Source of the DNA: Neorhizobium galegae bv. orientalis str. HAMBI 540
GTDB lineage: Bacteria > Pseudomonadota > Alphaproteobacteria > Rhizobiales > Rhizobiaceae
Length of the DNA stretch: 64,000 nt
Assembly: GCF_000731315.1 (NCBI RefSeq)
Contig: NZ_HG938354.1
Span: 806,001 to 870,000, forward strand
Reading direction: 5' to 3'
Part shown: positions 4,247 through 36,633 of the stretch, piece by piece
How the letters are laid out: each line of letters opens with the position of its first letter
Numbering within the stretch: the first letter of the stretch is position 1
Program-made: the position numbers and the translations under genes
The notes under the pieces: model-generated
Seen by the model: the letters and a program-made list of their open reading frames with translations, nothing else
The model's database searches: none
What the model was told of the DNA's origin: nothing

Positions 4247-4414
4247 GATCAATTTCCCCATGTAAGGGGAGCATCGCACACCGTTCGTTGTCCGCAAGCA
4301 GATGCTTAATTAACAGTTAACGCGACCGCCCGGCTGCTGTCCAAGTCAGACCAGACTCGAGCCATTCCCGGGTCGGCGCTCTCGGAGGCCATTGAGGACG
4401 AGACCTGTAGAGTG

Positions 4415-4608
4415 GTTCACCGGTGAACGCGGATGCTGACGGGGAACAGGCATTGGGAGACGCGCTGAAATCAACATCCGCGTTCGATCCCTTAACAAGT
4501 GCAGTTCATGGAAGTTTCGTGTGCCTGGAAATTTTGTTGAAGATAGTCCGACCGCAAGGTGCGGCTATGTCTCGGAAATCCCGGCTAACGATTTGGATCT
4601 AGATCCAA
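4415..4608. repeat. Cluster of perfect palindromes in a 446-bp intergenic region
   Basis: The gap 4247-4692 has no gene but three exact dyads: GTTCACCGGTGAAC (4415-4428, 14 bp); an 11-bp inverted repeat GAACGCGGATG (4425-4435) with CATCCGCGTTC (4475-4485) around a 39-bp spacer; and TTGGATCTAGATCCAA (4593-4608, 16 bp). The last lies about 85 bp upstream of the small membrane-protein gene at 4693. They may be operators for that gene or the edges of a lost element. Confidence 0.5.
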
Positions 4609-4692
4609 GTCTTTCGGAACATAGTAGCGGGCAACGGCATTCCGTTGGCGATCCAACCGGATCTGAAATCAGACCCACCAGTAGGTGACACC

Positions 4693-4767
4693 ATGAATAG
4701 CATCGTATGGCTCGTCGGAGCCGTCGTTATCGTCCTCTTTATTCTCGGCTTCTTCGGACTGAGGTAG
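4693..4767 (+). CDS. 24-residue single-span membrane micropeptide
   Basis: A short frame encoding MNSIVWLVGAVVIVLFILGF plus four residues (FGLR). It starts at an ATG with AGGTGA seven bases upstream and ends with TAG. Nearly the whole chain is one hydrophobic helix ending in Arg, so it should insert in the inner membrane. Very short proteins of this MN-IVWLVG...GFxGLR type occur in rhizobial genomes next to stress-related small genes (remembered, not searched). The good ribosome-binding site and the coherent composition support a real gene in spite of its size. Function unknown. Confidence 0.6.
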   Translation: MNSIVWLVGAVVIVLFILGFFGLR

Positions 4768-4934
4768 TATTTACTCGAGCGACGCACGAATGTTGCCCCA
4801 AAACTGCAGCCGTAGCGACTAGATATCGGTTCGTGGACGAGCGCTTCCGACGCGCCAAAACGTCGTCCAGCCGTAGCCGACCATTTGCCTTCCCCTCGGG
4901 CTGCGATATTTCCTGTTTAGGAGGATCTAATATC

Positions 4935-5154
4935 TTGACGCTGAAGTGGGAGAAACCGGTTCGGGCCGCAGGACAACAGATAGCCGGGCCGCGCGAGGCG
5001 CACCAATTCTTGATGGAACGGATGGCCGCATCGGAAAAATGAGGAATGGTCAGCGGCTGAGAACAGCGCACTGGCGGCTCTTGATGGTCGGAAATCCCCT
5101 GATGAAGCACGCGAGAAATTTGAGACGGCCCTTAAGTCGGCTCAATTGAACTGA
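4935..5154 (+). pseudogene. DUF982 family small protein, frameshifted
   Basis: The first frame (TTG start at 4935, AGGAGG ten bases upstream) reads LKWEKPVRAA...GPREAHQFLMERM and stops at 5042. The rest, NEEWSAAENSALAALDGRKS...AREKFETALKSA, follows in the next frame and ends at 5154. Joined, they give the W-x-x-P-V ... G-P-R-E-A ... FL-x-x-x-W ... A-x-x-A-L-x-G layout and the length of about 74 residues typical of DUF982, a small rhizobial family of unknown function. The shift falls in a run of five A at 5035-5039. It could be a true mutation, a sequencing error or slippage. Confidence 0.7.
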
Positions 5155-5257
5155 AGCGGAACGAAGCAGAGACTGTCCCGTTCCTGTCTAACCCTGACGT
5201 CCACATCGATGAGGCGAACATTCGGCCCCGTGGACCACTCAGAGGAAAGGCACGCTT

Positions 5258-5545
5258 ATGAAAAACTTTATCCTCGCCGCCGCCCTTGTTGCAGTGGCCA
5301 GCGGCGCGTTTGCTCAGCAACCTACGGCGGCTCCACCCGACAAGGCGGTGGATTTTGTCAGCAGGCAACCCATGCCGGCCAATCCTGTCCAGGTCAGCGA
5401 GAAGATTGCGCTTGGTCAGCCGATACCAAACAACCTCGTGCTGTCACCTATTCCGGATACGCCGAACTTCGCCTTCGCGATCGTCAATCAGAAGCGGCTG
5501 ATCATCGACCCCAAGTCCTTCGTGGTGGTTAGGATCGTTGAGTGA
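5258..5545 (+). CDS. DUF1236 family secreted protein
   Basis: A 95-residue precursor with a clear Sec signal peptide (MKNFILAAALVAVASGAFAQ, cleavage after AFA) and a mature domain ending FAIVNQKRLIIDPKSFVVVRIVE. That ending, N-x-R-x-x-I-x-P-x-T/S-x-x-V-V-x-I-x, is the hallmark of DUF1236, a periplasmic domain common in rhizobia. The start has GAGGAAAG eight to fifteen bases upstream. Its function is unknown; family members are often stress- or envelope-associated. The gene is followed by two more small envelope genes on the same strand. Confidence 0.85.
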   Translation: MKNFILAAALVAVASGAFAQQPTAAPPDKAVDFVSRQPMPANPVQVSEKIALGQPIPNNLVLSPIPDTPNFAFAIVNQKRLIIDPKSFVVVRIVE

Positions 5546-5659
5546 CGGACGGAGGCATAGCCCGTCCCGGCGATCGACTATGATCCACCTTAATATCTGC
5601 TGGCGGAACGATGGCCTCCGTCCGACGTTCTCTCTGCGCTAGAAATTAGAGGCAATCCC

Positions 5660-6067
5660 ATGCGAAACTATATCCGACTGACGACGCTGCTCGTCGGACT
5701 CTCCGCTACTGTCGCTTTCGCTCAGTCTCCGCCGGCCGACACCTCCCCGCTGCCGAAGGCACCCCCGGAAGTAACAGCAGACAATCCGCCACCACCACCT
5801 CCTGGTCCACGTGGACCAGGACCGGACATGGGCCACCGCCCACCGCCGTCAGAACGTGGAGCGCGCATCCACGTCGAGAACGGTCGGACCCGGGTCGACC
5901 TGCGCTGCGCTGATTCAGATTCTACAAAAGAGTGCGCCGACGCATTGGTGCAGATCCTCGACAGGCTCCAAACGTCATCTTCGGCCGACGGGGAATCGGG
6001 ACGCGGCTTCAGCCGCGATCGTGGGAGCGACCGAGGATATGATCGCGACCGGGATGATCGGAGATAG
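5660..6067 (+). CDS. Secreted proline-rich hypothetical protein
   Basis: A 135-residue precursor. The signal peptide is MRNYIRLTTLLVGLSATVAFAQ. It is followed by a Pro-rich linker (a run of seven Pro near residue 44), a small central domain (RIHVENGRTRVDLRCAD...ECADALVQILDRL) and a tail rich in Arg, Asp and Gly (SRDRGSDRGYDRDRDD). The central domain with two Cys may be a periplasmic module. A similar layout of a signal peptide and an acidic motif of the type VENG-x-x-x-VDLRCA is known from rhizobial hypothetical proteins (memory only). It is two bases from the next gene, so the two are probably co-transcribed. Confidence 0.75.
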   Translation: MRNYIRLTTLLVGLSATVAFAQSPPADTSPLPKAPPEVTADNPPPPPPGPRGPGPDMGHRPPPSERGARIHVENGRTRVDLRCADSDSTKECADALVQILDRLQTSSSADGESGRGFSRDRGSDRGYDRDRDDRR

Positions 6068-6069
6068 TC

Positions 6070-6354
6070 ATGAAGCGCGACTACATTTCCGAGATCGACC
6101 GCATTGGCACACAACTTGCCGATCTCCGTACTGCGCTCGCTGGGCAAGCTGGCGACGCAGCGGAAAGTGCGGCGACATACATCGTTCCTACGGCTCGCCA
6201 GTTCGCATGGCAATTCCAAAAGGAAAGTTACGGTCTTGGCAAGGCTGCCCAACGGAACCCTTCGGCAGCAACTGGAGCCATCGTCGGTGTTATGCTGCTT
6301 GGGGCGGCGGTAGCTTGGCTGTTAACGGCGAGTGGTAGAGAGAGGGACGAGTGA
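6070..6354 (+). CDS. DUF883/ElaB-like small membrane-anchored protein
   Basis: A 94-residue protein with an N-terminal amphipathic helical part (EIDRIGTQLADLRTALAG), a middle helix, and a C-terminal hydrophobic anchor (GAIVGVMLLGAAVAWLLT) followed by a basic/acidic tail. This layout, with a NPSAATGAIVGVMLLGA segment before the membrane helix, matches the DUF883/YqjD/ElaB class, whose E. coli members attach to the inner membrane and bind ribosomes. Assignment rests on layout and so is moderate. It starts two bases after the proline-rich gene. Confidence 0.65.
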   Translation: MKRDYISEIDRIGTQLADLRTALAGQAGDAAESAATYIVPTARQFAWQFQKESYGLGKAAQRNPSAATGAIVGVMLLGAAVAWLLTASGRERDE

Positions 6355-6459
6355 CTCTTTTCAGCTGTCCAAAATTCACCTAGCAAAAGGGATGGCGTTC
6401 CCAAGCGCCACCCCAAACCATGCTGTTCATGGCGAAATAGATCTGCCCCCAAACGCTTT

Positions 6460-6702
6460 TGTCTCGATGGCTTTGAGGTCGATCGCACATCCTCAATCGA
6501 ACTTGGCCGAACGCATCCTCAGGCCATGATGGTCTCGGTCCACCCCGGCACCGTCCGCACGAAGCTGTCCGATCCCTCGCAGGGCCACAAGATGGTCAGT
6601 GCCGAGGAGGCCGCAATCTCGATCATTGACACTCTTGATAGGTTACCAGCCGACCCGTCGGGCAGCTTCGTCGTCTACGATGGAACCGAGATGCTATGGT
6701 GA
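6460..6702 (+). pseudogene. C-terminal fragment of a short-chain dehydrogenase (SDR)
   Basis: From 6526 an open frame of 58 codons reads VSVHPGTVRTKLSDPSQGHK...SAEEAAISIIDTLDRL...GSFVVYDGTEMLW and ends in TGA. HPGTVRT is the post-catalytic segment of CsgA/C-factor-like SDRs, and the C-terminal F-x-x-YDG-x-E fits too. Upstream residues (ALRSIAHPQSNLAER) continue in a different frame, so there is a shift near 6515. The Rossmann and YxxxK parts are absent. It is a dead 3' remnant, and nothing nearby on the same strand could complete it. Confidence 0.65.
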
Positions 6703-6839
6703 GATTGCCTCAAGGCCTAAGAGCTAGCGCTTTCGACATTTCGCAACTGGTCGGCTGATGATTTCTCCCTAAATGAGAATTCGAAAGGGCGCTCTCCCTA
6801 AGGAAGAGTTCCAGAAAATCTCTTGGGAGGGGACAATTC

Positions 6840-8447
6840 ATGCTGCGTTCAAGCCTTATGTCGGCCGCAACCATCTTCGTCGCGTTGAATGCTTCCTCGG
6901 CGCTCGGCCAAACGACAGGCAAGCCGATCGTCAACAAGGGCACACCGACACCGGAATGCAGCGCGCGGGTAAACGTAGACCGCAATGGAGAGCTGCCAGG
7001 CTACGTTGCGGAATGGGATGGCAAAAAGGTCTGCCTCCCCTTCACGCTCACAAATCAACTTTTACCGCTCGGTGTCTCGCCAGACGATTTCTATATCAAG
7101 GACTTCTCCGACGTCCGGATCCGCGAGAAATGGGCGGCTTGTAAATCTGATCCGGCTTGCGCGGAAAAAACACTGACGGCGGCGAAAGGTTTTGCCAAGT
7201 TCGAGCCGCGCGATACCGGAACGGTCGACAAGAAGGGCGCGATCGATTTCGATGGCACCGTTGATCTGACGACCATCCGCCGCCCGGCCTATTTCGGATC
7301 AGGCCCGTACACCGAAGCGATCGCCAGCGCCGATACGCGCACCTTTATCGTCGAATTCACCGCACCACGCGACAGCTTCGAACAGCAACATCTGAAGCTG
7401 ACGGGCGATATCAAGCTCCGAGGCTGGTATATTCGAGGCGAAGGTGTCGCCGACGATACGGGCAAGAAGACCCGCGGCCTGGTGATCATGAACAATGGCG
7501 GCGGCAGCGAATTCACCGCGATCGACAATCCCAAGACGGCTCCGTTCACAGTCGACAAAACGAGTGGCGACTACAGCCCGGCCAAGAATGACGACGTGAC
7601 GGAAGAGCCGGGCATCCGCTACTGGCGCGGATTCCTGTCCGATCTGAACGCTGCGGGTTTCGACGTTCTCATCACGGATCGGCGCGGCAACGGCATTTCC
7701 GGCGGCCGAAATGGCTTCAACACCGCCGAGCAAGCAAACGACATCTTCCGCGAGTTGGATCAGCTTGAAACCGGTAAGGGTCTGCGGGTCCTGGGACCCG
7801 ACGGCAAAGAGTCGGAAGGTGATACAGCGGCCAAGGCGTTGCGCGATGGCGCTTCCTTCCGTGACATACCGGTGATCGTCGGTGGCTATTCGCGCGGCTC
7901 CTACGCCACGCAGTGGTTCATGCACAAGAATTTCGTCGAAAACTGCAATTATGACCTGGCCAAGCCGACCTGCTCGAAAGCCGTCGGCTTGCAGAACATC
8001 AAGGGCGCGATCCTCTACGGTCCGAACTCGGCGGGCCTGGGTTACCGTTTGGCCGGACACGATGCGGTGGAAGGCGCGCTTCGGGTGGCCCTTAACACCA
8101 CCTATTATGTCGATTCCGTCGTCCCGGCGAATGTCGACAAGTGGCCCGGCCTGCAGATCATCAAGGGGACTTGGGACTATGTAGAAGGCCTTGAAGGATC
8201 GCTCGATACCTATCGGCGTGCCAAGGGTCTCAAGGACATCAGCGTTTTTCTTGGACCCCATATCCTACAGACGCAAAATCCGGCGAACATGAAGTTCGCA
8301 GGTCAACGCATGGTGGCCTTCGCCTCGGCGGCGATTCTCGGCAAAAAGGAGGTAACCGGGGCTGTCAATCCGAAGGACCTCAAGGAACTGGTGACGTCAG
8401 CCCCGCATATCTGGGAGCTGTCGACGGCGATTTCTGCCGAAAATTGA
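6840..8447 (+). CDS. Large secreted alpha/beta hydrolase
   Basis: A 535-residue protein with a Sec signal peptide (about residues 1-23, ending SALG-Q) and a strong ribosome-binding site (GGGAGGGG). The C-terminal half is an alpha/beta-hydrolase: the strand LVIMNNGGGSEF (oxyanion region), DVLITDRRGNGISGG, and the nucleophile elbow GGYSRGS with Ser351. A catalytic His is likely in GPHILQ. The N-terminal 150 residues contain paired Cys (ECSAR, KVC, ACKSDPAC) that could form disulphides in the periplasm. It resembles secreted esterase/lipase-like hydrolases of unknown substrate in alphaproteobacteria. Neighbours give no pathway. Confidence 0.8.
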   Translation: MLRSSLMSAATIFVALNASSALGQTTGKPIVNKGTPTPECSARVNVDRNGELPGYVAEWDGKKVCLPFTLTNQLLPLGVSPDDFYIKDFSDVRIREKWAACKSDPACAEKTLTAAKGFAKFEPRDTGTVDKKGAIDFDGTVDLTTIRRPAYFGSGPYTEAIASADTRTFIVEFTAPRDSFEQQHLKLTGDIKLRGWYIRGEGVADDTGKKTRGLVIMNNGGGSEFTAIDNPKTAPFTVDKTSGDYSPAKNDDVTEEPGIRYWRGFLSDLNAAGFDVLITDRRGNGISGGRNGFNTAEQANDIFRELDQLETGKGLRVLGPDGKESEGDTAAKALRDGASFRDIPVIVGGYSRGSYATQWFMHKNFVENCNYDLAKPTCSKAVGLQNIKGAILYGPNSAGLGYRLAGHDAVEGALRVALNTTYYVDSVVPANVDKWPGLQIIKGTWDYVEGLEGSLDTYRRAKGLKDISVFLGPHILQTQNPANMKFAGQRMVAFASAAILGKKEVTGAVNPKDLKELVTSAPHIWELSTAISAEN

Positions 8448-24890: not shown

Positions 24891-27008
24891 CTATTCGGCT
24901 GCGTCGGGGTGCTGCTGCTCGTCGAGCTCGTCCGTCTGCGGGGACACATCCTCCGCATCATCGGTCAGGAATGCCGGAAGATCGGGATTCTTGGTCTCGT
25001 CGGCACCCTCATTGGAAACCTCGCCGGTTGCGCTGGTCGCTTCGTCGACGGAAGCGACGTCTGCGGCGAGACGGAGAGGTTCGGGAAGCCAGCCGCTGCC
25101 GGTCATCAGCCGTTCGGCCTCGCGGGCCATATCGGCCTTCTTGAGATGGCCGATCAGCTCCGCTGATTGATCGCCTTTGGCCTCGCGGACCGCCTGCAGA
25201 ATGCGAGCCTTGGTGACCCGGCCGAGATAGTTGTCGGCCGTCGGCACCCAGCCGGCCTCGACCATGCCGAAGCCGATCGAGCGGGCCAGGAGATCGGCAT
25301 GCGCGAGTGCGCGAGTGCGCTTGTTCCACGGCTCGATGACTGCGTTGATCGACAGCGAGGCGCAATGCGCGAACAGCGCCTGACGGCTCACCTCGTCAAG
25401 TGCGATCAGAAACGCCCAGACGTCGTTCGGGTCCTTGGGAAGATCATGTCCCCAGGCCTCCTGCCGCTGGTCGATTTCCTTGGCCCAAACAGTGTCGCCA
25501 AGCCCGGGGGTCTGGCTGAACCGAGCACTTTGCAATGTCAGTTCCAGGCACGAATCCGCGCCATAGAGATAGAAGGTCTTCAGCACAAAGGCATGCAGCA
25601 CGGCGATGAAGGCCATGAGTGGATCGTTGGCGAGCGCGTTGCGCAACGCGATGGTCCGTGCTGCGGTCAAGTCGAGAACAAGACGATCGGGAAGCGGCTT
25701 GATTGCCTCGTCATCGTCGTCGGCTTGGTCGACCACCTCGCTCGGTGCCGCGGCTGCGGCTGCGGCTGCGGACGAGTTGCTGTCTCCACTGCCGTCGGCA
25801 TCGCTTGAAGCGAAATCTGCCCGGAGCTCGTCTTCCGGTCGCACGAAACCGCGTTCGATCTTGAGTTCGCCACTGGCGGCGAGCGAGATGAAGACGCCAC
25901 CGCGGAGAACATCTTCAGGGTCGAACACATACGGTCGGTCGTTCAGCCGATCGAATGCGGCGCCAAGCTCTTCGAGCTTCTGTTCAGTTGCCTCCGAATA
26001 ATCGCTGGCCTCGGCATATTCGGCATCGAGCCTGTCGTATTCAGCGCGGATGGCGTCGTGGCGCGCCAGCTCCTCCTCGGTCATCTCGGCCTGGGTGCCG
26101 TAGACGCGGCGAAGGCCGGATGTGTGGCCATACGGGAAGTCGAACGCCGTCTCGACCCATTTCCAGCCCTCGGCCGACCGGATTGCCTCGGCGTCAGCCT
26201 TGAGTTTTTCCGTGGCAAGCCGTTCCAGCAATGCAGGATCCTGCAGCCATCCGCCCTGATCCTGCTCGAACAGGTCGCGCATCACCACACCGCCGGCAGC
26301 TTCGTAGACGTCGATGCCGACATAAACGGCGCGACGATCGGCGGCGCGGACCGCGGTTTCCGTCAGCAGGCGTCGGATATAGTAGGGCTCGCGGCTATGC
26401 GAGCCCGAGATCGCATCCCAGACCTGCTCCTGGCGAAGGTGATCGTTGGCAATCGAAAACGCCATGATTTGCTCAAGCGTCATCTCGTCTTCGGCATAGA
26501 AATCGAGGAGCCGTGGGGAGACGGACGCAAGCCGCAGGCGCTGTTTCACGGTTGCGACCGAGACGAAGAACCGTGCAGCGATCTCCTCCTCGCCAAGCCC
26601 CTGCTCCCGAAGCGTCTGGAAGGCGCGGAACTGGTCGAGCGGATGCAGGCTGACGCGCTGGACATTCTCTGCAAGCGAGTCCTCGACCTCAAGCGTCTCG
26701 CCGCGGCTGACGATGCAGGGAACGCCAGCGGTTTTTGCCAGCCGCTTCTGGGAAACCAGCCGTTCAAGCGCACGGTAGCGGCGGCCACCGGCGGGAATGC
26801 GGTAGATGCCAGTCTCGTTGCCGTTCTCGTCAAGCTCAGGACGGACGTTGAGGCTGGTCAGAAGACCGCGATGGGCGATGTCTTCCGCGAGCTCCTCGAT
26901 CGAAACACCGGACTTTATCCTACGGACGTTCTGCCGGCTCAACACCAGTTTGTTGAAGGGAATATCGCGGGCTGCACTGAGGGTGATCTTTTCGATGGCC
27001 TGGGCCAT
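24891..27008 (-). CDS. Large ParB/RepB/Spo0J-type protein
   Basis: A 705-residue protein. Residues about 14-130 are a ParB N-terminal domain: NKLVLSRQNVRRIKSGVSIE, EDIAHRGLLTSLNVRPE, the AGGRRYRAL version of the G-E-R-R motif, and DSLAENVQRVSLHPLDQFRA. A HTH (LGEEEIAARFFVSVATVKQR) follows. The C-terminal 550 residues are unusual for a partition protein: a long helical region, an Ala run encoded by GCN repeats near residue 420, and an acidic tail. There is no ParA gene, so plasmid partition is unlikely. It is the promoter-proximal gene of the DUF932/strawberry-notch block and may act as a nuclease or CTP-dependent clamp. GGAGAAA precedes the ATG. Confidence 0.85.
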   Translation of the reverse strand: MAQAIEKITLSAARDIPFNKLVLSRQNVRRIKSGVSIEELAEDIAHRGLLTSLNVRPELDENGNETGIYRIPAGGRRYRALERLVSQKRLAKTAGVPCIVSRGETLEVEDSLAENVQRVSLHPLDQFRAFQTLREQGLGEEEIAARFFVSVATVKQRLRLASVSPRLLDFYAEDEMTLEQIMAFSIANDHLRQEQVWDAISGSHSREPYYIRRLLTETAVRAADRRAVYVGIDVYEAAGGVVMRDLFEQDQGGWLQDPALLERLATEKLKADAEAIRSAEGWKWVETAFDFPYGHTSGLRRVYGTQAEMTEEELARHDAIRAEYDRLDAEYAEASDYSEATEQKLEELGAAFDRLNDRPYVFDPEDVLRGGVFISLAASGELKIERGFVRPEDELRADFASSDADGSGDSNSSAAAAAAAAPSEVVDQADDDDEAIKPLPDRLVLDLTAARTIALRNALANDPLMAFIAVLHAFVLKTFYLYGADSCLELTLQSARFSQTPGLGDTVWAKEIDQRQEAWGHDLPKDPNDVWAFLIALDEVSRQALFAHCASLSINAVIEPWNKRTRALAHADLLARSIGFGMVEAGWVPTADNYLGRVTKARILQAVREAKGDQSAELIGHLKKADMAREAERLMTGSGWLPEPLRLAADVASVDEATSATGEVSNEGADETKNPDLPAFLTDDAEDVSPQTDELDEQQHPDAAE

Positions 27009-27485: not shown

Positions 27486-27926
27486 ATGGATCAGAAGAAG
27501 CCGAACCCGATTGATGTACATGTTGGATCAAGGATCCGATTGAGACGGGCCATGCTGAAGATGTCCCAGGAGAAACTGGCCGACGGGCTTGGGATTACCT
27601 TCCAGCAAGTGCAGAAATACGAAAAGGGAACCAATCGGGTTGGCGCCAGTCGTCTTCAGATGATTGCAACTATACTGAACGCGCCTGTCGGCTATTTCTT
27701 TGCCGATGCGCCAACCCCGTCATCGGCGACCGATAGCAAGCCTGTCGTGCACGAGGAAGATGCGGTGACCTCTTTTCTGGCAACCCGTGAGGGGGTGGAA
27801 CTCAATCTGGCATTCCAGAGGGTGGCAAATGCGAAGCTGCGCCAAAACATCGTTCAACTGGTCAAATCCTTGGGGGCTCCGTCAGGTCTGGATCGCGATC
27901 ACGCGGATCCGGGCGCAACGCGTTAA
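27486..27926 (+). CDS. PraR-like XRE family transcriptional regulator
   Basis: A 146-residue regulator with a Cro/CI HTH: PNPIDVHVGSRIRLRRAMLK, SQEKLADGLGITFQQVQKYE and KGTNRVGASRLQMIATILNA. This is nearly identical in layout to rhizobial PraR/PhrR and to other alphaproteobacterial XRE proteins with the FQQVQKYEKG-x-NRV core. The tail (VELNLAFQRVANAKLRQNIVQLVKS) is helical. The start at 27486 has GGAGGG ten bases upstream. The next regulator gene begins 12 bases after its stop, so the two are co-transcribed. PraR-type proteins repress quorum-sensing and surface genes in rhizobia; here a role in controlling the peptide-modification genes is inferred from position. Confidence 0.9.
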   Translation: MDQKKPNPIDVHVGSRIRLRRAMLKMSQEKLADGLGITFQQVQKYEKGTNRVGASRLQMIATILNAPVGYFFADAPTPSSATDSKPVVHEEDAVTSFLATREGVELNLAFQRVANAKLRQNIVQLVKSLGAPSGLDRDHADPGATR

Positions 27927-27938
27927 CGGATCATTCCG

Positions 27939-29750
27939 ATGCTCCGGCTTGTGACATTCGGGGGCCTTTGGCTTGCTGACGAGGAACGAGGGACAGTGCC
28001 ACTGCCACAGAAGGCACTGTTCGGCCTCGCCTATATGTTGGCCAGCGATGAATTTGAGCTGCCGCGAGATTATCTGGCGCGGCTGCTTTGGGCAGGCGAT
28101 CAAGACGCCGCCAAAATCAACTTTCGAAAGATGACCGAGCGCGTGCGCAAATGCGCCATGGACGGCTGGCCCGCGCCACTCGATTTCACGGCTTCGACCG
28201 TACAGCGATCCGCCGAGCCCGTTGAGGCGGATTTCTCCGTCTTCTCCAATGATCTTGAAGCGCTGCCGCGATTGAACGCGATGTCGGAATTGATGACGCG
28301 GCAGTTTATGGACGAAGCCAATTTACCCGTCGGCCTGAAACCATGGGTCGAGAAACAACGGTCGGTCCAGTGGCAACGTTTTCGCGCGGGGCTCTTCGAG
28401 GCACAAGCCGCCGCCGCAAGTCGATCGGAATGGGCCGATGTCAAGGATAGCGCAAAACAACTCCTCGAACACGACCCGGGCGATTCTGCCGTGCGCGAGG
28501 TGCTGCTTGGGGCGCATCGTCATGAAGACCAAATCGGATCCTCTAGATCATCGGTCAGTCGAACCGAGTTCACGTTGCCCATGGGGACAGCAATCGTCCC
28601 CCCGATGCCCATGGAACTCCCCCGGCTGGTATTGCTTCCTCCCCAGGAAGCAGAGCAAAACTCTGCTTATCCAGCTCGCGCGTTGATGGAAGATATCACG
28701 ATAAGTCTTTGCTCCTTGAGGACGGTGGCGGTCGTTGCTCCGTATACGGCAGCCCGCATCCGGCAGGATGCGGATAAGATGGCCCAGCTGGAGAGACATT
28801 CCATCTCCTACGTCCTTGACACCAACATCAGCAGCGAAGGCCTCTTCGTACAGATGGTATTCCTTCCCTCGGACAGCGTTTTGTGGGCGGAGCGTTTCCG
28901 CCTCAACGCCAGCTCACTTGCTTCACACCGCAGACAAGTGGCGCAGATGATCGTGATGGCCATCAGCGACCACCTGCAGCGCACCGAAATTGTGCTCGCT
29001 GATTACCGTGCTCACCCGGACGTCTATAGGTCCTATCTTGCCAGCGCCCAGCATCTCAACAAATTCACGCTCCCTGACGTGCGCCGGGCCAGAAACGCCT
29101 TTCGAGAAACGCTGAGAATGCGCGGGGATTTCGCGCCGGCGTTGGCGGGTTTGTCCCGTACCTACTCCTGGGAATGGGTCTTGACGGCGCGGGGAGAGAC
29201 AGAGCTGCTGGTTCAGGCGGAAGAAACGGCAAGAAAAGCGGTGGCCCTGGAGCCGGAACTGGCATCGGCGCACCGGGAGCTTGGGCTATCGAGGCTTTAC
29301 CGCGGCGATGTCGACGGAAGCCTGGAGGCATTCGATCGGGCGGAGAGATTGAGCCCACACCTTGCCGACGCAATATGCGGATATGCCGACGCTTTGGTTC
29401 ATGCATCGAAGCCTGCCGATGGGTTGGCGAAGATCAGCAAAGCTATCCGCTTAAATCCGATATGCCCGGACGATTATTTCTGGATTGCGGCCGGGGCCAG
29501 CTATTTCCTGGGTGAATTTCATCAGGCTGTCAGCTATATAGACCAAATGGGGGACTCCTCGTCGGCCAGGAGATTGCTTGCGGCGAGTTATGCTATGGCT
29601 GGCGATACCGCGAAGGCACGCGTCCATCGCCGCAGGGCTCAGGAACTCAACCCGCAATTCGATCTCGATAAATGGCTTTCCGTGCTTCCGGTGAAGGAAC
29701 AATGGCAGAAGGAACTCTACCGAGAGGGCCTGATGAAAGCCGGGTTTTAG
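27939..29750 (+). CDS. SARP-like winged-helix / TPR transcriptional regulator
   Basis: A 603-residue protein. Residues 1-75 look like a SARP/OmpR-type winged helix (LRLVTFGGLWLADEERGTVP, LARLLW...KINFRKMTERVRKC). Residues about 75-210 form a BTAD-like helical domain. Residues about 230-330 form a TolB-like beta domain (LPRLVLLPPQ, ALMEDITISLCSLRTVAVVA). Residues about 360-600 contain TPR repeats (ARKAVALEPELASAHRELGL, SLEAFDRAERLSPHLADAIC, KISKAIRLNPICPDDY). Similar winged-helix/TPR proteins sit near TfuA/YcaO genes or adenylate cyclases in rhizobia. It is 12 bases downstream of the XRE gene and 32 bases upstream of the small peptide gene, so it is probably a dedicated activator of this locus. 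Confidence 0.8.
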   Translation: MLRLVTFGGLWLADEERGTVPLPQKALFGLAYMLASDEFELPRDYLARLLWAGDQDAAKINFRKMTERVRKCAMDGWPAPLDFTASTVQRSAEPVEADFSVFSNDLEALPRLNAMSELMTRQFMDEANLPVGLKPWVEKQRSVQWQRFRAGLFEAQAAAASRSEWADVKDSAKQLLEHDPGDSAVREVLLGAHRHEDQIGSSRSSVSRTEFTLPMGTAIVPPMPMELPRLVLLPPQEAEQNSAYPARALMEDITISLCSLRTVAVVAPYTAARIRQDADKMAQLERHSISYVLDTNISSEGLFVQMVFLPSDSVLWAERFRLNASSLASHRRQVAQMIVMAISDHLQRTEIVLADYRAHPDVYRSYLASAQHLNKFTLPDVRRARNAFRETLRMRGDFAPALAGLSRTYSWEWVLTARGETELLVQAEETARKAVALEPELASAHRELGLSRLYRGDVDGSLEAFDRAERLSPHLADAICGYADALVHASKPADGLAKISKAIRLNPICPDDYFWIAAGASYFLGEFHQAVSYIDQMGDSSSARRLLAASYAMAGDTAKARVHRRRAQELNPQFDLDKWLSVLPVKEQWQKELYREGLMKAGF

Positions 29751-29782
29751 ATTTTTCATACCAACAACTTAAGGGGTAAGAT

Positions 29783-30001
29783 ATGGCAAGAGTTGTGATC
29801 ATCGGGCTGCCCGGAGACGATCAGCTTTATCTCGCGGACATCGACGCAGGAACGGTCCTGCCGATGCAGCCGCCCGTTTCCGGACCGTTGGCCGCGGCAA
29901 ACGATCTTAGAAATGCAGGGGGAACAATCGTCAAAGACGTCAACCTAGCGGTTGCAGTCTCCTCTTCCGAACAGGCTTTCTCCGGTGTCTTCGATGGTTA
30001 A
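29783..30001 (+). CDS. Small peptide gene of the YcaO-TfuA locus (candidate modification substrate)
   Basis: A 72-residue protein beginning MARVVIIGLPGDDQLYLADI, with segments GTVLPMQPPVSGPLAAANDL and AVAVSSSEQAFSGVFDG at its end. AAGGGG lies nine bases before the ATG. It contains no Cys and only one later Met, and is rich in Gly, Ser, Ala and Val. It is directly upstream of YcaO (19-base gap) and shares its strand, which is where RiPP precursors usually sit. Gly, Ser or the C-terminal FSGVFDG could be modified. It could instead be a small partner protein rather than a precursor; the first 25 residues look like a folded beta-alpha unit. Confidence 0.7.
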   Translation: MARVVIIGLPGDDQLYLADIDAGTVLPMQPPVSGPLAAANDLRNAGGTIVKDVNLAVAVSSSEQAFSGVFDG

Positions 30002-30020
30002 GCTGCCGACGGCGTAAGCG

Positions 30021-31172
30021 ATGGACCGCATCTGCTTACCCGAGGAGACCTATGAGCGGGTGCGTCCTTTTCTGAAGACGCTTGGAATAACCCGTATCGG
30101 CCGCCAGACCGGACTCGATCATATCGGCATTCCGGTCTGGTGCGCCTATACTCCAAACGCCAAATCGATCGTGGTTGCTCAAGGCAAAGGGCTCACCGAT
30201 GCCGATGCGAGAACATCTGCGGTCATGGAGGCCATAGAGCGGGCTGTCGCTTGCGATCCGTTCCTGTCAATCAGGAATGTCTCCGCGTCAGCTCTTTCAG
30301 ATGCCGACGAGCGTGTCGACTTGCTTGTGCCGCTTCTTGGCCGAAACCAGTCCCCTCCCCGAGCAACCGACATTATGGCATTTGCGGCGGGAGAAGAGCT
30401 CTTCAGTTCTGACCGCGTCTACGTTCCGGCCGAAGCCGTGTCCCTCGATCGGACTCTGTCGAACTGCCGGTACTGGCAATCTTCGGATGGCCTTGCATCG
30501 GGCAACACGCATGGCGAGGCAATCTTCCACGGCCTTCTCGAGCGTGTCGAGCGCGACGCTCATGTCTTGTGGCAGGTTCTTCCTCAATCCAGCCAGCACT
30601 CCAGGTGTCTGCAACCCGACGCATTCAGCGATGAGGACGTTAGGTCCCTCATCGTGAAGATCGAGGATGCGGGTATCCTGCTGCGCATGTTCGACATGAC
30701 AAGCGATATCGGCATACCATGTATCGGCGCCTTCCTTGCGGCGAAAGCCGCGCTCGCGTCGCGTGCGCCGCGATATGTCGACGTGACGTTCGGCTGCGGT
30801 GCTCATCCATCCCCCGAACGCGCTGCCGTGCGCGCGCTGACGGAAGCCGCGCAGTCCCGGGTCACTTATATTAGCGGCGCACGCGATGACGTATTCCATG
30901 AGACCTATCGGCGACCGCTGCCCGAGCGGTTGCTGAGGTTGTTTTCTGCAGATCCTTCACGCGGCGTGCCCTTGCCCGGTCCGAACGACCTTGGGGGAAT
31001 CCTGGGGAACTTGAAGCGGTCGGGTATCACGCAGGCAATCGCGGTTCGATTGAGCGAGCCGGCATTCCCCTTCGCGGTCGTCAAGATATTGGTACCCGGA
31101 CTGGAAAGCCCCGAGGGAGAGCGACGGCACAGATTTGGCGGCAGGGCGATGACAGCATCGTTTACCTCATGA
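30021..31172 (+). CDS. YcaO-family ATP-dependent cyclodehydratase/thioamidase
   Basis: A 383-residue YcaO enzyme. ATP/Mg-binding motifs are visible: SAVMEAIERAVACDPF with Glu70, Glu73 and Arg74, and NTHGEAIFHGLLERVERDA with Asn162, Glu166, Glu174 and Asp179. Further conserved parts are DIGIPCIGAFLA and CGAHPSPERAAVRALTEAAQ. It lacks an N-terminal E1-like partner domain and the Pro-rich C-terminus typical of azoline-forming YcaO; instead the neighbour is TfuA. TfuA-paired YcaO enzymes install thioamides (McrA of methanogens, thiovarsolins, and probably trifolitoxin). The reaction is peptide-backbone activation by ATP. The stop overlaps the TfuA start (ATGA). Confidence 0.9.
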   Translation: MDRICLPEETYERVRPFLKTLGITRIGRQTGLDHIGIPVWCAYTPNAKSIVVAQGKGLTDADARTSAVMEAIERAVACDPFLSIRNVSASALSDADERVDLLVPLLGRNQSPPRATDIMAFAAGEELFSSDRVYVPAEAVSLDRTLSNCRYWQSSDGLASGNTHGEAIFHGLLERVERDAHVLWQVLPQSSQHSRCLQPDAFSDEDVRSLIVKIEDAGILLRMFDMTSDIGIPCIGAFLAAKAALASRAPRYVDVTFGCGAHPSPERAAVRALTEAAQSRVTYISGARDDVFHETYRRPLPERLLRLFSADPSRGVPLPGPNDLGGILGNLKRSGITQAIAVRLSEPAFPFAVVKILVPGLESPEGERRHRFGGRAMTASFTS

Positions 31173-31864
31173 AAGTACTTTTTGTCGGTCCAAGCCTGCC
31201 GGAAGCAGAACGTTTCGTCGCTGACGATATGAGTGTGAGGCCGCCGGCGATGCAGGGGGACGTGCGGTTGGCGGTCGAGCAGGGCGCGAGAGCCATCGGA
31301 TTGATCGACGGCGCCTTCGAATATGTCGCCCCCGTCTGGCACAAGGAAATTCTCTACGGTCTCTCGAAAGGCGTGGCGGTCTTTGGAGCGGCGAGCATGG
31401 GTGCCTTGCGGGCGGCAGAATGTCACGCCTTCGGCATGATCGGCATCGGGGAAATCTTTGCGGCCTATGCAAGCGAAACCCGTGTCGACGATGCGGATGT
31501 CGCACTGCTGCATGGACCTGAAGAGCTTGGATATATTGCTATCACCGTTCCGATGGTCAACGTCGACGCCACGATCGCCGGCTGTTGCACGCACGGTCTG
31601 ATCTGCGACCGGGAAGCGCGGCATCTCGAGGAAAGCGCGCGATCTCTGTTCTTCAAGGCCCGTAGCTGGAACGCGGTCGTCGCAAACTGCTCGGAGATTG
31701 CGAGTGGGCGCGCCAACGAATTGCTGCGAATTCTTTGCCATAACTATGTGGACCAAAAAAGAGCGGACGCCGTCGCCCTGATCGATGCCCTGCGTCACGC
31801 CGACGCCTATTCTCCCCCCACCCACTTTGAATTTAACCGAACATCTCTCTGGCGCGATGACTAG
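31169..31864 (+). CDS. tfuA: TfuA family protein
   Basis: A 231-residue protein with the TfuA core: MKVLFVGPSLPE at the N-terminus, a GDVRLAVEQGARAIGLIDGA segment, VWHKEILYGLSKGVAVFGAA and SMGALRAAECHAFGMIGIGE. The family is named for trifolitoxin production in Rhizobium leguminosarum. TfuA proteins are thought to supply or deliver sulphide equivalents, or to recruit sulphur donors, for the thioamidation catalysed by YcaO. The start codon overlaps the YcaO stop by four bases, which strongly suggests coupled translation. It is the last gene of the set. Confidence 0.92.
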   Translation: MKVLFVGPSLPEAERFVADDMSVRPPAMQGDVRLAVEQGARAIGLIDGAFEYVAPVWHKEILYGLSKGVAVFGAASMGALRAAECHAFGMIGIGEIFAAYASETRVDDADVALLHGPEELGYIAITVPMVNVDATIAGCCTHGLICDREARHLEESARSLFFKARSWNAVVANCSEIASGRANELLRILCHNYVDQKRADAVALIDALRHADAYSPPTHFEFNRTSLWRDD

Positions 31865-32851: not shown

Positions 32852-34540
32852 TTATCTGGCATAGAGGCGATCGAGACGCACGACCTTGCCCAGTACGGTC
32901 AGCGCGATCACGGTAAACAGGATCAGCACCGCTGAGATTGCATGCGCGGTCGGCTCCAGGCTGAAGGTCGATTCCGCGTAGATGCGGACCGGCAAAGTCG
33001 TCAGGCGGGCGGTGGTGAGGAAGCTGGTGACGGTGACTTCACCGAAGCTGAGCAGGAAGCCGACGATGCCCGCCGCAAACAGTCCCGGCGCCAGACCCGG
33101 CATGATGATCAGGAAGAAGCGTCGCACCGGGCTTGCCCCGAGGCTCGCCGCCGCCTCCTCCTGCGCCCGATCGAGCCCCATGACCGAGGTGGTCAGGAGC
33201 GTGATCGCAAACGGCAGGATGACGATCACGTGGATCGCCACGAGGCCGAGGAAAGGCGGGATGATCAGGTAGATCTGCAGCAGCCGCAGCATGCCGACGC
33301 CGATCGCCACATGCGGCAGCGACATCGGTAAAAGCCAGAAGGTCAACAGCGCGGACCGGCCCTTGAAGGGATAGCGGGCGAGCGCGAATGCGGCAGGCAG
33401 CGAGAGCGCCAGCGCCACCAGCATGGAAGTGACGGCAAGCCGCACCGACACCCAGAAGGCATCCGCATAGGTTCCGGCAAAAAACACCGCCTCATACCAT
33501 TTGAGGGTGAAACCGCGGAAGCCTGAAGCGGTTGCCTGCGGCACGTCGTTGAAACTCTGGACGCAGACCAGCACCAGCGGCAGCAGCAGGAGCAGCAACG
33601 AGGTTGCGAGCAGCAGCTTCGACACGATCGGTCCGAGGATGTCGATGATCGGCACCAGCCAGCGCGGAATGCTCCACGGATTGCTGGGTTTGCCCTTTAA
33701 CCACGGCATCAGGCGGTTGAGCGCGTAGGCGCAGAGCGCCGCAAAGGCGAGACCGGTGACGGTCATGATGATCGCAAGTGCGGCCGCAAGCGGTGCATTG
33801 AGGTTCTTGATCGCCTCCTGCAGCACCAGCATGCCGGTGGTCCAGACCTTCTTGCCGCCGAGCAGGGAGGCGGACACATAGGCCGTGGTCGCCATCAGGA
33901 AAACGATGACGGTGCCGGAACGCAGGCCCGGCAGCGACAGCGGCAGGTCGACGGTGAGAAACCGGACCGCCGGAGATGCGCCAAGGCTCTGCGCCGCCTC
34001 ATGAACGCGCGGCGAAGTGTTCTGCAGGTTGTCGTAGAGCGCCAGCACCATGAACGGCAGGAAGACCTGCGCCAATGCGACGGCGACCGCACCATGGGTG
34101 AACAGCATGTATCTCGCCGGCGGAATGCCGATCAGGCCGGTGACCGAATTGATCAGGCCCTCGGGCGCCAGCAGCAGGATGATGCCGAGCGAGCGCACCA
34201 CGACATTGGTCAATAGCGGAATGAGGATGACCGCAAACGCGGCCGCGCGGTATTTCACCGGCATCCGCGCCAGCCAGTGGGCGAGCGGATAACCGAGAAG
34301 CGCGGTGATCACGGTGACGCCAAGGCCGAGCAGGATGGTTTCGGAGACGACGCCGAAATAGAAGCCATCCGATACGATATCCCGGAACTGCGCGATCGAC
34401 GGCGCCAGGAACAGCGGGCCGAAAGGATCGGGATACTCGTGCAGGGAAAGCACGAGTACCACGAACATTGGCGCCGCGAAGGATAAAAGCAGCCAAAGGG
34501 TGACCGGCGCTGCAAGCGCCGGCCCGATCCAACGGTTCAT
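32852..34540 (-). CDS. Fused ABC transporter permease (two permease units in one chain)
   Basis: A 562-residue membrane protein made of two binding-protein-dependent permease units, each with about six helices and an EAA-type loop: VHEAAQSLGASPAVRFLTVD in unit 1 and QEEAAASLGASPVRRFFLII in unit 2. In most PotBC-type systems these are separate subunits; fusions occur in iron(III) FbpB-like systems. The ATG at 34540 overlaps the binding-protein stop by four bases, so the long N-terminal extension of the open frame is not real. It forms the membrane channel for the binding protein and ATPase encoded upstream in the same operon. Confidence 0.9.
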   Translation of the reverse strand: MNRWIGPALAAPVTLWLLLSFAAPMFVVLVLSLHEYPDPFGPLFLAPSIAQFRDIVSDGFYFGVVSETILLGLGVTVITALLGYPLAHWLARMPVKYRAAAFAVILIPLLTNVVVRSLGIILLLAPEGLINSVTGLIGIPPARYMLFTHGAVAVALAQVFLPFMVLALYDNLQNTSPRVHEAAQSLGASPAVRFLTVDLPLSLPGLRSGTVIVFLMATTAYVSASLLGGKKVWTTGMLVLQEAIKNLNAPLAAALAIIMTVTGLAFAALCAYALNRLMPWLKGKPSNPWSIPRWLVPIIDILGPIVSKLLLATSLLLLLLPLVLVCVQSFNDVPQATASGFRGFTLKWYEAVFFAGTYADAFWVSVRLAVTSMLVALALSLPAAFALARYPFKGRSALLTFWLLPMSLPHVAIGVGMLRLLQIYLIIPPFLGLVAIHVIVILPFAITLLTTSVMGLDRAQEEAAASLGASPVRRFFLIIMPGLAPGLFAAGIVGFLLSFGEVTVTSFLTTARLTTLPVRIYAESTFSLEPTAHAISAVLILFTVIALTVLGKVVRLDRLYAR

Positions 34541-35586
34541 CCCGCGATCTCCCGATCGTATTTCGCCTGCCATTTGGCGCGGCTGGCATTGATCACGTCC
34601 CAATCGAAATCGACGAGCTTGGCGACATTGGCATCGCCGAGCACGAGCTTCGACTTGATGTCGTCCGGCACGGTGATGTTGCTGACGGTCGGCGAGTAGT
34701 AGATCTGGCGTGCGTAGGCGAGCATGCAGGGTTCGGAAAGATGCAGGTTGATCCACTCTTCGGCGAGCTTCTGGTTCTTGGTGCCTTCGGTGATGCAGGC
34801 GACGTTCATCGAAAGCGCCTGTCCCTCGACCGGGGTGGCGATCGCTATATTGGGATTGCGCGTTTCGACATAGGACTGGGTGAAGCTGCCGAACTCGACG
34901 GAAAGGTCGGCGAGCTTCTGGTCGAACATTTCGAAGAGTTGCGCCTGGCTGCCCTGGATCGCCGCGAAGGGCTTCAGTTCCTTGACCTTTTCGAAGGCGA
35001 TGTCGGCGTTCTTCTCGTCGCCGCCCCAGACGCGGGCGGCCATCATCAACGCGGAAATGCCTTCGGCGCCCAGACCATCCGGCCAGGCGATACGGCCCTT
35101 CCATTCCGGGTTCCACATGTCCTTCCAGGAGGTGATCGGCTTCGACGCCTTGGTCTTGTCGTAGACGATCGTGCAGGGGTTGAAGGCAACCCCGTAACCG
35201 CCCTTGCGGGCGCTCGGATAGAGCGCTTCGAAGTTCTTGACGGCAGGCGTCGGCGCCTGGGTCACGCCGTCCTTCACCGCCTGGCGGCTTTCGAAGATGT
35301 TAAGGTAGAGAACATCAAAGCTCGGACGGCCGCGTTCCGCATAGGCGCGGGCGCGACGGTCACCGGTGCCGCCGAGAACGTAGCTGATCTTGCAGCCGTA
35401 TTTCTCGACCAGCGGCTTCTCGACATGTTCCTTGACGATCTTTTCCTGCGCGCCGCCCCAGATGCCGACGACCAGTTCGTCGCCCTTTTTCGGCTCCTGC
35501 GCGGAGGCGGGACGGATGATGTGGAACGGTGCGGCAAGGCCGGCACCGGCAATCAGCTTGTTGAATGTACGACGCGAGACGTTCAT
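34537..35586 (-). CDS. ABC transporter substrate-binding protein (PotD/F-like, Tat signal)
   Basis: A 349-residue periplasmic binding protein. A twin-arginine signal (NVSRRTFNKLIAGAGLAAPF) is followed by cleavage after ASA. Mature-chain features are typical of the extracellular solute-binding family 1/PotD group: DVLYLNIFESRQAVKDG, GGYGVAFNPCTIVYDKTK, SWKDMWNPEWKGRIAWPDGL, and a C-terminal WINLHLSEPCMLAYARQIYY segment. In polyamine proteins the YDKTK and W-x-D-LW-x-PE-xKG motifs are conserved; the ligand here could be a different organic compound given its neighbours. It lies 21 bases after the ATPase gene. Confidence 0.9.
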   Translation of the reverse strand: MNVSRRTFNKLIAGAGLAAPFHIIRPASAQEPKKGDELVVGIWGGAQEKIVKEHVEKPLVEKYGCKISYVLGGTGDRRARAYAERGRPSFDVLYLNIFESRQAVKDGVTQAPTPAVKNFEALYPSARKGGYGVAFNPCTIVYDKTKASKPITSWKDMWNPEWKGRIAWPDGLGAEGISALMMAARVWGGDEKNADIAFEKVKELKPFAAIQGSQAQLFEMFDQKLADLSVEFGSFTQSYVETRNPNIAIATPVEGQALSMNVACITEGTKNQKLAEEWINLHLSEPCMLAYARQIYYSPTVSNITVPDDIKSKLVLGDANVAKLVDFDWDVINASRAKWQAKYDREIAG

Positions 35587-35607
35587 GTCTTGGTTCCCCT
35601 TTTTTGA

Positions 35608-36633
35608 TCAGATGAATGTGGCGCCACCCGGCTGGGTCTGGATGCTGCACGGCGTCCCAAGGGGCGGAGGCGGCATATCCGAAGGCACGATCAGGCGGAT
35701 CGTGCCGCATGCGGATTGGATATCGGCTTCGTAGGTGTCGCCGAGGAAAGCTGCGTTGACGAGCGTGCCGGAGACATGCAGCGGCCCCGTCTCGCCGGAC
35801 AGTCTCAGGCGCGAGGCGCGCAGCACGAGACGGGTCGCACCTGACGGTGCCCCCTCGCATGTCAGCCCCGGCGCGGAGAACAGACCGTTCTCGGTCTTGC
35901 CTTCGATCACCGTGCGGGCGCCAAGGAAGGAGGCGGTGAACGGCGAATGCGGCCGGTCGCACAGCGCAACCGGCGTGCCGATTTCGGCCAGCAGTCCCTT
36001 GTTCATCACCGCGACGCGATCCGACATGGCAAGTGCTTCCTGCTGGTCATGAGTGACGAAAACGGTGGTGATGCCAAGTCGCTGCTGCAGCGTGCGGATT
36101 TCGGTGCGCATGTCGGCACGAAGATGGGCGTCGAGGTTGGACAGCGGCTCGTCGAGGAGGAGCACGTCCGGTTCGATCACCAGCGCGCGGGCAAGCGCCA
36201 CGCGCTGCTGCTGGCCGCCGGAAAGCTGGCCGGGATACCGATCGTAATAGCCGCCAAGCCCGACCGTATCGAGTGCTGCGGCAGCGCGGGCGCGGCTGTC
36301 GGCCTTGCCGACATGGCGCATGCGCAACCCAAAACCGACATTGTCGAGCGCCGTCAGATGGGGAAACAACGCGTAGGACTGGAAGACGACGCCGATATTG
36401 CGGGTATGCACCGGCCGCTTGCTGATGTCCTCGCCATTGAGAATGACGCGCCCTTCCGACGGCTGCACGAAGCCGGCGATCATCCGGAGCGTCGTCGTCT
36501 TGCCGCAGCCGGACGGCCCGAGCAGCGACAGAAGTTCGCCCTTGGCGACCTCGATCGTGAGGCCGCTGACGGCGACGGAATCGCCGTAAATAGCCGTGAT
36601 GTTGTCGAGCGTCAGGTAGTGCTTATGCGACAT
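35608..36633 (-). CDS. ABC transporter ATP-binding protein (PotA-like)
   Basis: A 341-residue ATPase. Walker A is GPSGCGKTT (near 40-48), the Q-loop is VVFQSYALFPHLTA, the ABC signature is LSGGQQQRVALARAL, Walker B is LLLDEPLSNLD, and the switch His is FVTHDQQEA. A C-terminal TOBE-like regulatory domain (about 235-341) follows, as in the PotA/MalK/FbpC group. It powers the fused permease encoded downstream. Its first 11 bases overlap the end of the CocE-like gene, so the two are translationally coupled. Confidence 0.95.
   Translation of the reverse strand: MSHKHYLTLDNITAIYGDSVAVSGLTIEVAKGELLSLLGPSGCGKTTTLRMIAGFVQPSEGRVILNGEDISKRPVHTRNIGVVFQSYALFPHLTALDNVGFGLRMRHVGKADSRARAAAALDTVGLGGYYDRYPGQLSGGQQQRVALARALVIEPDVLLLDEPLSNLDAHLRADMRTEIRTLQQRLGITTVFVTHDQQEALAMSDRVAVMNKGLLAEIGTPVALCDRPHSPFTASFLGARTVIEGKTENGLFSAPGLTCEGAPSGATRLVLRASRLRLSGETGPLHVSGTLVNAAFLGDTYEADIQSACGTIRLIVPSDMPPPPLGTPCSIQTQPGGATFI

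Follow-up and report, generated by a model that had tools for sequence, protein, structure and literature searches.

The enzymes YcaO and TfuA together thioamidate McrA in methanogens, and a TfuA gene is also part of the rhizobial cluster for trifolitoxin, an azol(in)e-modified peptide. What, then, does the YcaO-TfuA pair encoded by Neorhizobium galegae bv. orientalis str. HAMBI 540 modify, and what becomes of its product? The pair lies in the 64,000-nucleotide stretch of DNA analyzed here (the window), which spans positions 806001-870000 of a 1.81-Mb contig (NZ_HG938354.1); a second contig of the genome is 4.65 Mb. Six genes follow one another on the plus strand, encoding an XRE-family regulator, a regulator resembling Streptomyces antibiotic regulatory proteins (SARP) with a tetratricopeptide repeat (TPR) half, a 72-residue peptide, YcaO, TfuA, and a small sixth protein. 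The initial annotation, made from the sequence alone, had described the first five open reading frames (ORFs) as same-strand genes with gaps of 12, 32, and 19 bp followed by a 4-bp YcaO/TfuA overlap, and the ORF listing agrees to the base. It overlooked the sixth gene, as well as the core motif, the multi-core relatives, and the second YcaO-TfuA locus described below. We propose that the locus is probably a small operon for a ribosomally synthesized and post-translationally modified peptide (RiPP), with a precursor that is thioamidated by YcaO-TfuA and, more tentatively, a product that is sensed by the TPR half of the SARP-like regulator.

A peptide profile built from 18 sequences was searched against 394 Rhizobiaceae genomes, and the peptide was found in 76 of them, at 85 places. 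TfuA is encoded within 5 kb at 71 of these places, in 70 cases on the same strand and 1.3-2.3 kb downstream, and a TfuA gene is present somewhere in all 76 peptide-bearing genomes. Because 71 of the 85 peptide homologs have TfuA so close by, the association is not one of chance. The earlier claim that the peptide belongs with YcaO-TfuA, for which a lack of conservation beside other such genes had been named as the refutation, has therefore survived. Judged from these sequences, the putative cassette is conserved in root-nodule bacteria and their relatives. With a broader peptide profile, the source genome was the only positive among 385 genomes drawn from the class. The closest named homologs come from Neorhizobium, and where names are given among the best 120 of 336 database matches, they read 'hypothetical' or 'uncharacterized' protein.

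The window and 80 further neighborhoods together cover all peptide places except two (one in genome G149 and a contig-edge fragment in G335). All five genes are recognizable in 62 of these 81 loci from the Rhizobiaceae sample, and in 67 of 78 loci of a set with named organisms (Neorhizobium, Rhizobium, Shinella, Ensifer, Hoeflea, Phyllobacterium, and others). R. johnstonii 3841 is among the carriers of a copy. The enzymes of other loci are often merely 42-55% identical to those of the window, and for this reason the gene order must have been kept by selection or by repeated transfer of the whole unit. The description of the locus as self-contained is thus apt for most loci and fails for several genomes in which a SARP-peptide pair, an XRE-YcaO pair, and TfuA lie at separate places. 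In such split arrangements the SARP gene remains with the peptide and the XRE gene with YcaO. Three loci (L203, L204, and L210) have TfuA and an XRE gene without an adjacent YcaO, and the peptide locus of the same genomes is without TfuA.

The peptide homologs have two distinct parts. Asp19 is present in all 83 aligned sequences, and Gly11, Thr24, Ala56, and Lys51 are each kept in at least 70. A structure model places strands at residues 4-8, 15-19, and 24-28 and a helix at residues 35-44, with block values of the predicted local distance difference test (pLDDT) of 67-81 over residues 1-50; residues 50-72 have a pLDDT under 50 and are modeled as disordered. A Foldseek search with the leader model gave no significant match, and its first five rows were TbiB1 and a sactipeptide enzyme (E 0.42-0.75), which we take to bear RiPP recognition elements. 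This order of rows is suggestive of a PqqD-like fold in the leader, but structural re-alignment with VIA-align did not list them. One 85-residue homolog, from a 940-base contig (P0001), has an in-frame 13-residue duplication within the leader.

The tail usually reads [S/A/G]-G-x-[F/M/L/Y/V]-[D/E] followed by zero to few residues, and in the window peptide it is SGVFD. Among 243 unique peptides, which take in the best 120 of the 336 listed database matches, a core-like pentamer occurs after residue 58 in 229 versus before residue 58 in 19. Tandem copies of the core, numbering two to six units, are found in 22 of the 243 homologs, and the window peptide itself is single-core. Examples include four FSGKL[E/D] units in Rhizobium alarense, three GGYMD units in Shinella, three GLHE units in another peptide, and six RMD units in a Rhizobiaceae bin. 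Because the core is tandemly repeated in this way, the layout resembles that of multi-core RiPP precursors. In four loci of one genus (L108, L113, L114, and L115), another precursor-like gene lies between peptide and YcaO; its start is similar, and it contains repeats such as RSDPSDRAFSFDG. The assignment of the peptide as a putative precursor with a leader (residues 1-62) and a C-terminal core is well supported by sequence. Cys is absent from 240 of the 243 peptides, including that of the window, as had been noted. Moreover, the core has no conserved Ser, Thr, or Cys: at its first position, among the 229 peptides with a core, Ser is commonest (145), and 79 have Gly or Ala.

When peptide residues 65-72 were scanned for mutual information with four proteins, YcaO residue 144 and core residue 71 stood out as the top pair (0.81, versus 0.44 for the next), a post hoc finding. 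Arg144 is present in 119 of 119 unique YcaO proteins adjoining an acidic core and in none of the eight adjoining a tail without the motif, where Phe (4), His (2), Leu (1), and Ala (1) occur instead in four lineages. These figures were reached by reading. The raw regular-expression count for the 127 proteins was 114 acidic with Arg, 7 non-acidic without Arg, 5 non-acidic with Arg, and 1 acidic without Arg. By eye, five loci were moved to the acidic group (L080, L083, L087, and L102, where the acid is in place and an earlier residue is off-pattern, and L124, with the tail SGVFDG), and L108 was moved to the non-acidic group as a chance match in a genus with other tails, which gives 119, 0, 0, and 8. 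Being without an acidic core here means that the motif is missing at that place, since L106, L107, and L113-L115 have an acid one place later or elsewhere.

YcaO proteins from TfuA loci chosen for having no peptide nearby behave differently. We took 40 of 80 such places, 37 of which have a YcaO, and added the second locus of the source genome (L005); 37 of these 38 proteins have Tyr, Phe, His, Met, or Leu at position 144. The lone Arg144 exception (L228) is from a genome, G297, that encodes an acidic-core peptide on another contig. The rule also predicted that genomes with the peptide apart from YcaO should encode an Arg144 YcaO elsewhere. All 12 genomes searched do encode such a protein. Nine were new to the rule, because G297 is the same assembly as G785, G786 matches G313, and their Arg144 proteins were known before. 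Five genomes (G003, G009, G270, G313, and G381) with both a solo SARP-peptide pair and a complete locus were left out. The six other YcaO proteins of the 12 genomes have His (5) or Tyr (1) at this position. In eight of the 12 genomes (seven distinct assemblies), no peptide adjoins the Arg144 YcaO in the stretch seen, and there the link is consequently independent of neighborhood. Because Arg144 tracks the core, even when peptide and YcaO are separated, the 72-residue peptide is very probably the substrate of YcaO-TfuA, a pairing that the sequences support well.

With regard to chemistry, the closest curated families for both enzymes (NCBIfam) are those of the methanogen pair that thioamidates McrA. 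The McrA model scores 198.7 bits for the window YcaO versus 98 for the SagD model, and the model for the YcaO accessory factor of S12 methylthiolation (NF040716) reaches 21.2 bits, below its cut-off of 700. The ATP motifs SAVMEAIER, EAIFHGLLERVERD, and TEAAQSR are present, with little or no variation at their Glu, Gln, and Arg positions among 98 dereplicated loci; Glu70, Glu73, Glu166, Glu174, Glu177, Glu275, Gln278, and Arg280 are kept in all 98. The Met, His, and Ala that PMC8120280 gives as preferred in TfuA-associated YcaO proteins also seem to be present, as matched by motif rather than by the numbering of that paper. Given that the peptides are mostly without Cys, that the core has no fixed Ser or Thr, and that the partner is TfuA, backbone thioamidation is most likely the chemistry performed on the core.

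The SARP-like gene is directly upstream of the peptide on the same strand in 80 of the 81 loci, ending -8 to 142 bp before it (median gap of 25 over all 81); in the odd locus, L105, the SARP ORF is in two pieces. The earlier label of SARP/BTAD-TPR holds for the TPR part, which Pfam recovers. The window protein alone gives no SARP or BTAD match at E 0.1, and among 38 aligned homologs, BTAD is matched in four and Trans_reg_C in two at E 0.01. The TPR half covaries with the core. Among 58 dereplicated loci, distances between cores are predicted by the TPR half (beta 0.44) and YcaO (0.31), and the SARP N half, XRE, and TfuA are not significant predictors. The corresponding betas are 0.28 and 0.38 in a stricter set of 39 loci; in an additional 45 loci, none of them close to the first set, they are 1.03 for the TPR half and 0.29 for YcaO. 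In the pool of 98 loci, the TPR-half beta is 0.63, and all of its core betas reach the permutation floor of 1/301. Peptide residues 31-62 are instead predicted by TfuA and, in most versions of the 58- and 39-locus sets, by YcaO.

Further comparisons point the same way. When branch co-change with the TPR half was scored on a tree from which this half had been left out, core positions 69 and 70 came first and second of the 72 positions; their ranks for the other partners are 67 and 52 (SARP N half), 44 and 52 (YcaO), 66 and 71 (TfuA), and 57 and 4 (XRE). With the TPR half's own branch rates on this tree, they rank 1 and 4 (reached by 0 and 21 of 500 permutations). The top pairs of the co-change analysis include SARP residues 480, 512, 516, 523, 567, and 585. 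Also, in nearest-neighbor transfer, the TPR half beats the whole N half, improving the core match by 0.05 to 0.16 depending on the distance cap, with intervals above zero. The core thus covaries more strongly with the TPR half than with the DNA-binding half, if less so under the strictest control. This suggests sensing of the mature peptide by the TPR half, which we advance tentatively, as a possibility rather than an expectation. We had also considered that solo SARP proteins are chimeric, since their TPR halves seemed nearer to the SGH-core group than their N halves, and dropped this idea because the pool contains pairs with equally identical N halves whose TPR halves match as closely (maxima 0.69-0.70).

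It is therefore possible to sketch how the operon might work. The 72-residue precursor, with residues 1-62 as leader and SGVFD as core, would be recognized by YcaO, whose Arg144 may contact the Asp or Glu of the core. YcaO and TfuA would then exchange a backbone carbonyl oxygen of the core for sulfur, most likely next to the near-invariant Gly68, and cell peptidases would trim the leader. The resulting small thioamidated peptide might be bound by the SARP-like regulator, the product of the gene directly upstream, through its TPR half; with this ligand, the regulator would adjust transcription of the operon or of other genes, with the XRE protein perhaps acting as a second switch. In this scheme, we infer the thioamide, its position, the trimming, any export, and the biological role.

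Several results weigh against such a scheme. Both enzymes miss the cut-offs of the models for the McrA pair (TIGR03266, 198.7 versus 365 bits; NF033432, 176.7 versus 235.2 bits), and the Arg144 rule is a post hoc result of scanning. The TPR signal is weaker on a tree of the TPR half itself: under global branch rates, position 69 ranks 1 and position 70 ranks 24, and under the half's own rates their ranks are 5 and 7, reached by 48 and 61 of 500 permutations. Nor is the signal confined to the core or to the TPR half: this half also predicts residues 1-10 (0.29 pooled) and residues 31-62 (0.47 in the 45-locus set), and in the 45-locus set the core is predicted by XRE too (0.29, p 0.007), as are residues 11-30 by the SARP N half (0.75). 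The predictors are collinear, which makes the betas unstable (e.g., -0.34 for the SARP N half and the core in that set). Among the top 100 mutual-information pairs, the TPR half contributes 24, versus 27 for XRE and 25 for the SARP N half. TPR-nearest neighbors are better on variable leader positions as well, and at the loosest cap, residues 138-370 score 0.773, nearly as much as the TPR half (0.784). Finally, clustering of the neighbors of 82 loci revealed no recurrent peptidase cluster and no transporter with a fixed place.

These last negatives also bear on an ordinary biosynthetic cluster, in which the modified peptide is an antibiotic or another exported product and the SARP and XRE proteins merely switch on its genes without binding it. 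SARP-type activators govern such clusters in actinobacteria, and known thioamidated RiPPs are described as bioactive metabolites in PMC8120280. We regard this reading as quite possible without expecting it to be correct, because a fixed transporter and a recurrent peptidase are missing beside the loci, SARP keeps its place by the peptide even in genomes that encode YcaO and TfuA at other sites, and its TPR half and the core covary. The covariation itself might reflect nothing but the shared ancestry of linked genes, since covariation is strong among all the linked genes (r 0.68-0.91 for protein distances), the residue rule is post hoc, and the TPR signal weakens on the TPR tree. Linkage of this kind would not readily explain why Arg144 held in all 12 genomes with a separated peptide, why a different residue (Phe, His, Leu, or Ala) takes its place in each of the four lineages without an acidic core, or why the TPR signal peaks in the core, the leader being nearer to SARP. 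On balance, we consider ancestry without direct contact unlikely.

Two other readings leave the peptide or its chemistry in a different role. The constant pairing of peptide and SARP (80 of 81 loci), the conserved leader-like part, and its predicted fold at moderate confidence would suit an intact regulatory or adaptor protein of SARP, with YcaO-TfuA modifying another protein, as with McrA or ribosomal uL16. Against this reading stand the C-terminal core repeats, the second multi-core genes, the Arg144-core rule, which also holds in trans, and the small ORFs, unrelated to the peptide, that take its slot in other SARP-YcaO-TfuA loci, so that we judge it quite improbable. If the peptide is instead modified, YcaO enzymes are versatile and might activate core amides for azoline or amidine formation, for which the frequency of Ser at core position 1 could be cited. 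Azoline formation is not the general outcome, however, because 240 of 243 peptides have no Cys and many cores begin with Gly or Ala. With TfuA as the partner, the McrA thioamidation model scoring twice as high as SagD, no E1-like gene seen by eye beside the loci, and a core in which Ser, Thr, and Cys are not conserved, azoline or amidine chemistry seems very improbable. We therefore continue to favor a thioamidated RiPP.

Table 1. Positions in the window of the operon genes and of the features predicted within them
Feature	Position	Strand	Basis
XRE-family regulator, 146 aa	27486..27926	+	Pfam HTH_3 2.7e-11; XRE gene beside YcaO in split arrangements
SARP-like regulator, 603 aa, C-terminal TPR half about residues 371-603	27939..29750	+	TPR_2 1.2e-6; BTAD in 4/38 relatives
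Putative precursor peptide, 72 aa	29783..30001	+	Conserved family, 76/394 Rhizobiaceae genomes; alignments A1, A2
Leader-like part, residues 1-62	29783..29968	+	Predicted structure; conservation
Predicted core pentapeptide SGVFD, residues 67-71	29981..29995	+	Motif [SAG]Gx[FMLYV][DE]
YcaO, 383 aa, predicted thioamide-forming	30021..31172	+	PF02624 1.6e-58; closest solved relative MJ1094 (6pe3) 4.9e-31
YcaO Arg144 codon, predicted reader of the acidic core residue	30450..30452	+	Covaries with acidic core
TfuA, 231 aa	31169..31864	+	PF07812 9.3e-41; solved relative 6xp8 6.5e-28
Sixth gene, small, probably helical protein, 72 aa	31954..32172	+	Hidden Markov model (HMM) from relatives; 'helical' from sequence alone

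The remaining parts of the neighborhood (Table 1) deserve brief comment. A profile made from relatives found the sixth gene in 68 of 82 loci, mostly just 3′ of TfuA; its matches include the second locus of the source genome, a solo SARP-peptide locus (L089), and several loci without an adjacent TfuA. Its product may serve as an immunity protein, an adaptor, or a regulator. Neighbors of the 82 loci were grouped by clustering rather than scanned with HMMs, and among the clusters common to at least four loci, which we inspected by eye, no E1-like gene was seen. This agrees with the earlier statement that an E1-like partner is lacking. The accompanying statement that there is no transporter needs qualification, because one transporter-type cluster, an ABC ATPase, does occur in 13 of the 82 loci; with varied offsets and both strands represented, it was rejected as a dedicated transporter. 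The ABC transporter-like ORFs just 3′ of the window locus on the opposite strand (32852-36633, -), presumably of the putrescine type, do not look linked either. Directly upstream of the locus is a gene for a large ParB-like protein of 705 residues (24891-27008, -).

The second YcaO-TfuA locus of the source genome (L005; G000:C1:2386500-2399500, 3228-8404) has the order SARP-TPR, a 51-residue ORF (5264-5419), YcaO, TfuA, and a small helical protein, with XRE on the other strand. The 51-residue ORF occupies the same slot as the 72-residue peptide and is unrelated to it, and some other SARP-YcaO-TfuA loci likewise have unrelated small ORFs there. In L232, a short ORF similar to that of L005, ending in HAVRFR, is found in this slot. 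A third precursor-like type of about 140 residues lies between SARP-TPR and YcaO in L226, L230, and L208.

How new is this system? It had been proposed as an undescribed one, which is true of the precursor family so far as we have found and untrue of the cluster class, since PMC8120280 counts more than 500 TfuA-related clusters in Rhizobium, along with 797 precursor families. PMC10434180 places thioamitide-related clusters, of unknown role, on Rhizobium plasmids. The clusters of both papers resemble this locus in antiSMASH class, in the adjacency of YcaO and TfuA in Rhizobiaceae, and in being plasmid-borne in some cases, and the main text consulted, taken apart from supplementary precursor tables, does not describe the precursor family, the core, the SARP-TPR link, or split loci. 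Thiovarsolin (VarA, VarY, and VarT of Streptomyces varsoviensis), as presented in PMC6511847, shares YcaO-TfuA, repeated and variable short cores behind one leader, the lack of a specific protease, and a tiny linear product, which here is predicted. It differs in its APR core and in var genes for heme-oxygenase-like, ATP-grasp, amidinotransferase, and MFS proteins, in place of which this locus has XRE, SARP-TPR, and small-protein genes. The first three of these var types are absent from the eight scanned window proteins (operon and nearest flanks); other neighbors were clustered rather than HMM-scanned.

The McrA system provides the closest family models and structures (MJ1094, 6pe3; TfuA, 6xp8), with scores below the equivalog cut-offs, and its substrate is a large enzyme, whereas that predicted here is a short peptide tail. 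Trifolitoxin has in common a TfuA-containing rhizobial cluster; here the peptide has no Cys and no E1-like partner was seen. The hallmark of azole-forming systems, conserved Cys, Ser, or Thr in the core, is not found, given that Cys occurs in 3 of 243 peptides and that 79 of 229 cores begin with Gly or Ala. In contrast, the features expected of YcaO-TfuA RiPP loci are present, namely adjacent YcaO and TfuA, ATP-binding residues, and a nearby precursor with leader and core. The layout is also reminiscent of RRNPP systems, in that a TPR regulator has a peptide gene directly downstream, with DNA-binding domain models matched only in some relatives. According to PMC13361665, streptococcal RaS-RiPP operons are controlled by Rgg/SHP, which likewise pairs a TPR-type regulator with a small-peptide gene. 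There, a separate peptide, SHP, is the signal and the pheromone is not the RiPP, whereas here the RiPP core is the proposed ligand, in an alphaproteobacterium. A search of the literature, covering main texts and few subscription papers, returned no account of this precursor family, a core-tracking enzyme residue, the SARP-TPR tie, or split arrangements, and within the same scope no RiPP sensed by a SARP-TPR protein. The cluster class is already known, and we have not found the precursor family, its pentapeptide core, Arg144, or the SARP-TPR tie described.

Perhaps the cassette constitutes a Gram-negative circuit in which a thioamide-modified pentapeptide is the ligand of a cytoplasmic SARP-TPR factor, with precursor, maker, and receptor co-evolving, able to act in trans, and multi-core in some lineages. 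We hold this proposal to be conceivable and somewhat doubtful. If true, rhizobia would possess a counterpart of RRNPP quorum sensing that works with a modified peptide, and if the receptor idea is correct, plant-associated bacteria would use a thioamide-peptide signal. For one large family, the present analysis supplies a precursor, its five-residue core, a core-tracking residue of the enzyme, and a candidate receptor, so that the question can be tested directly.

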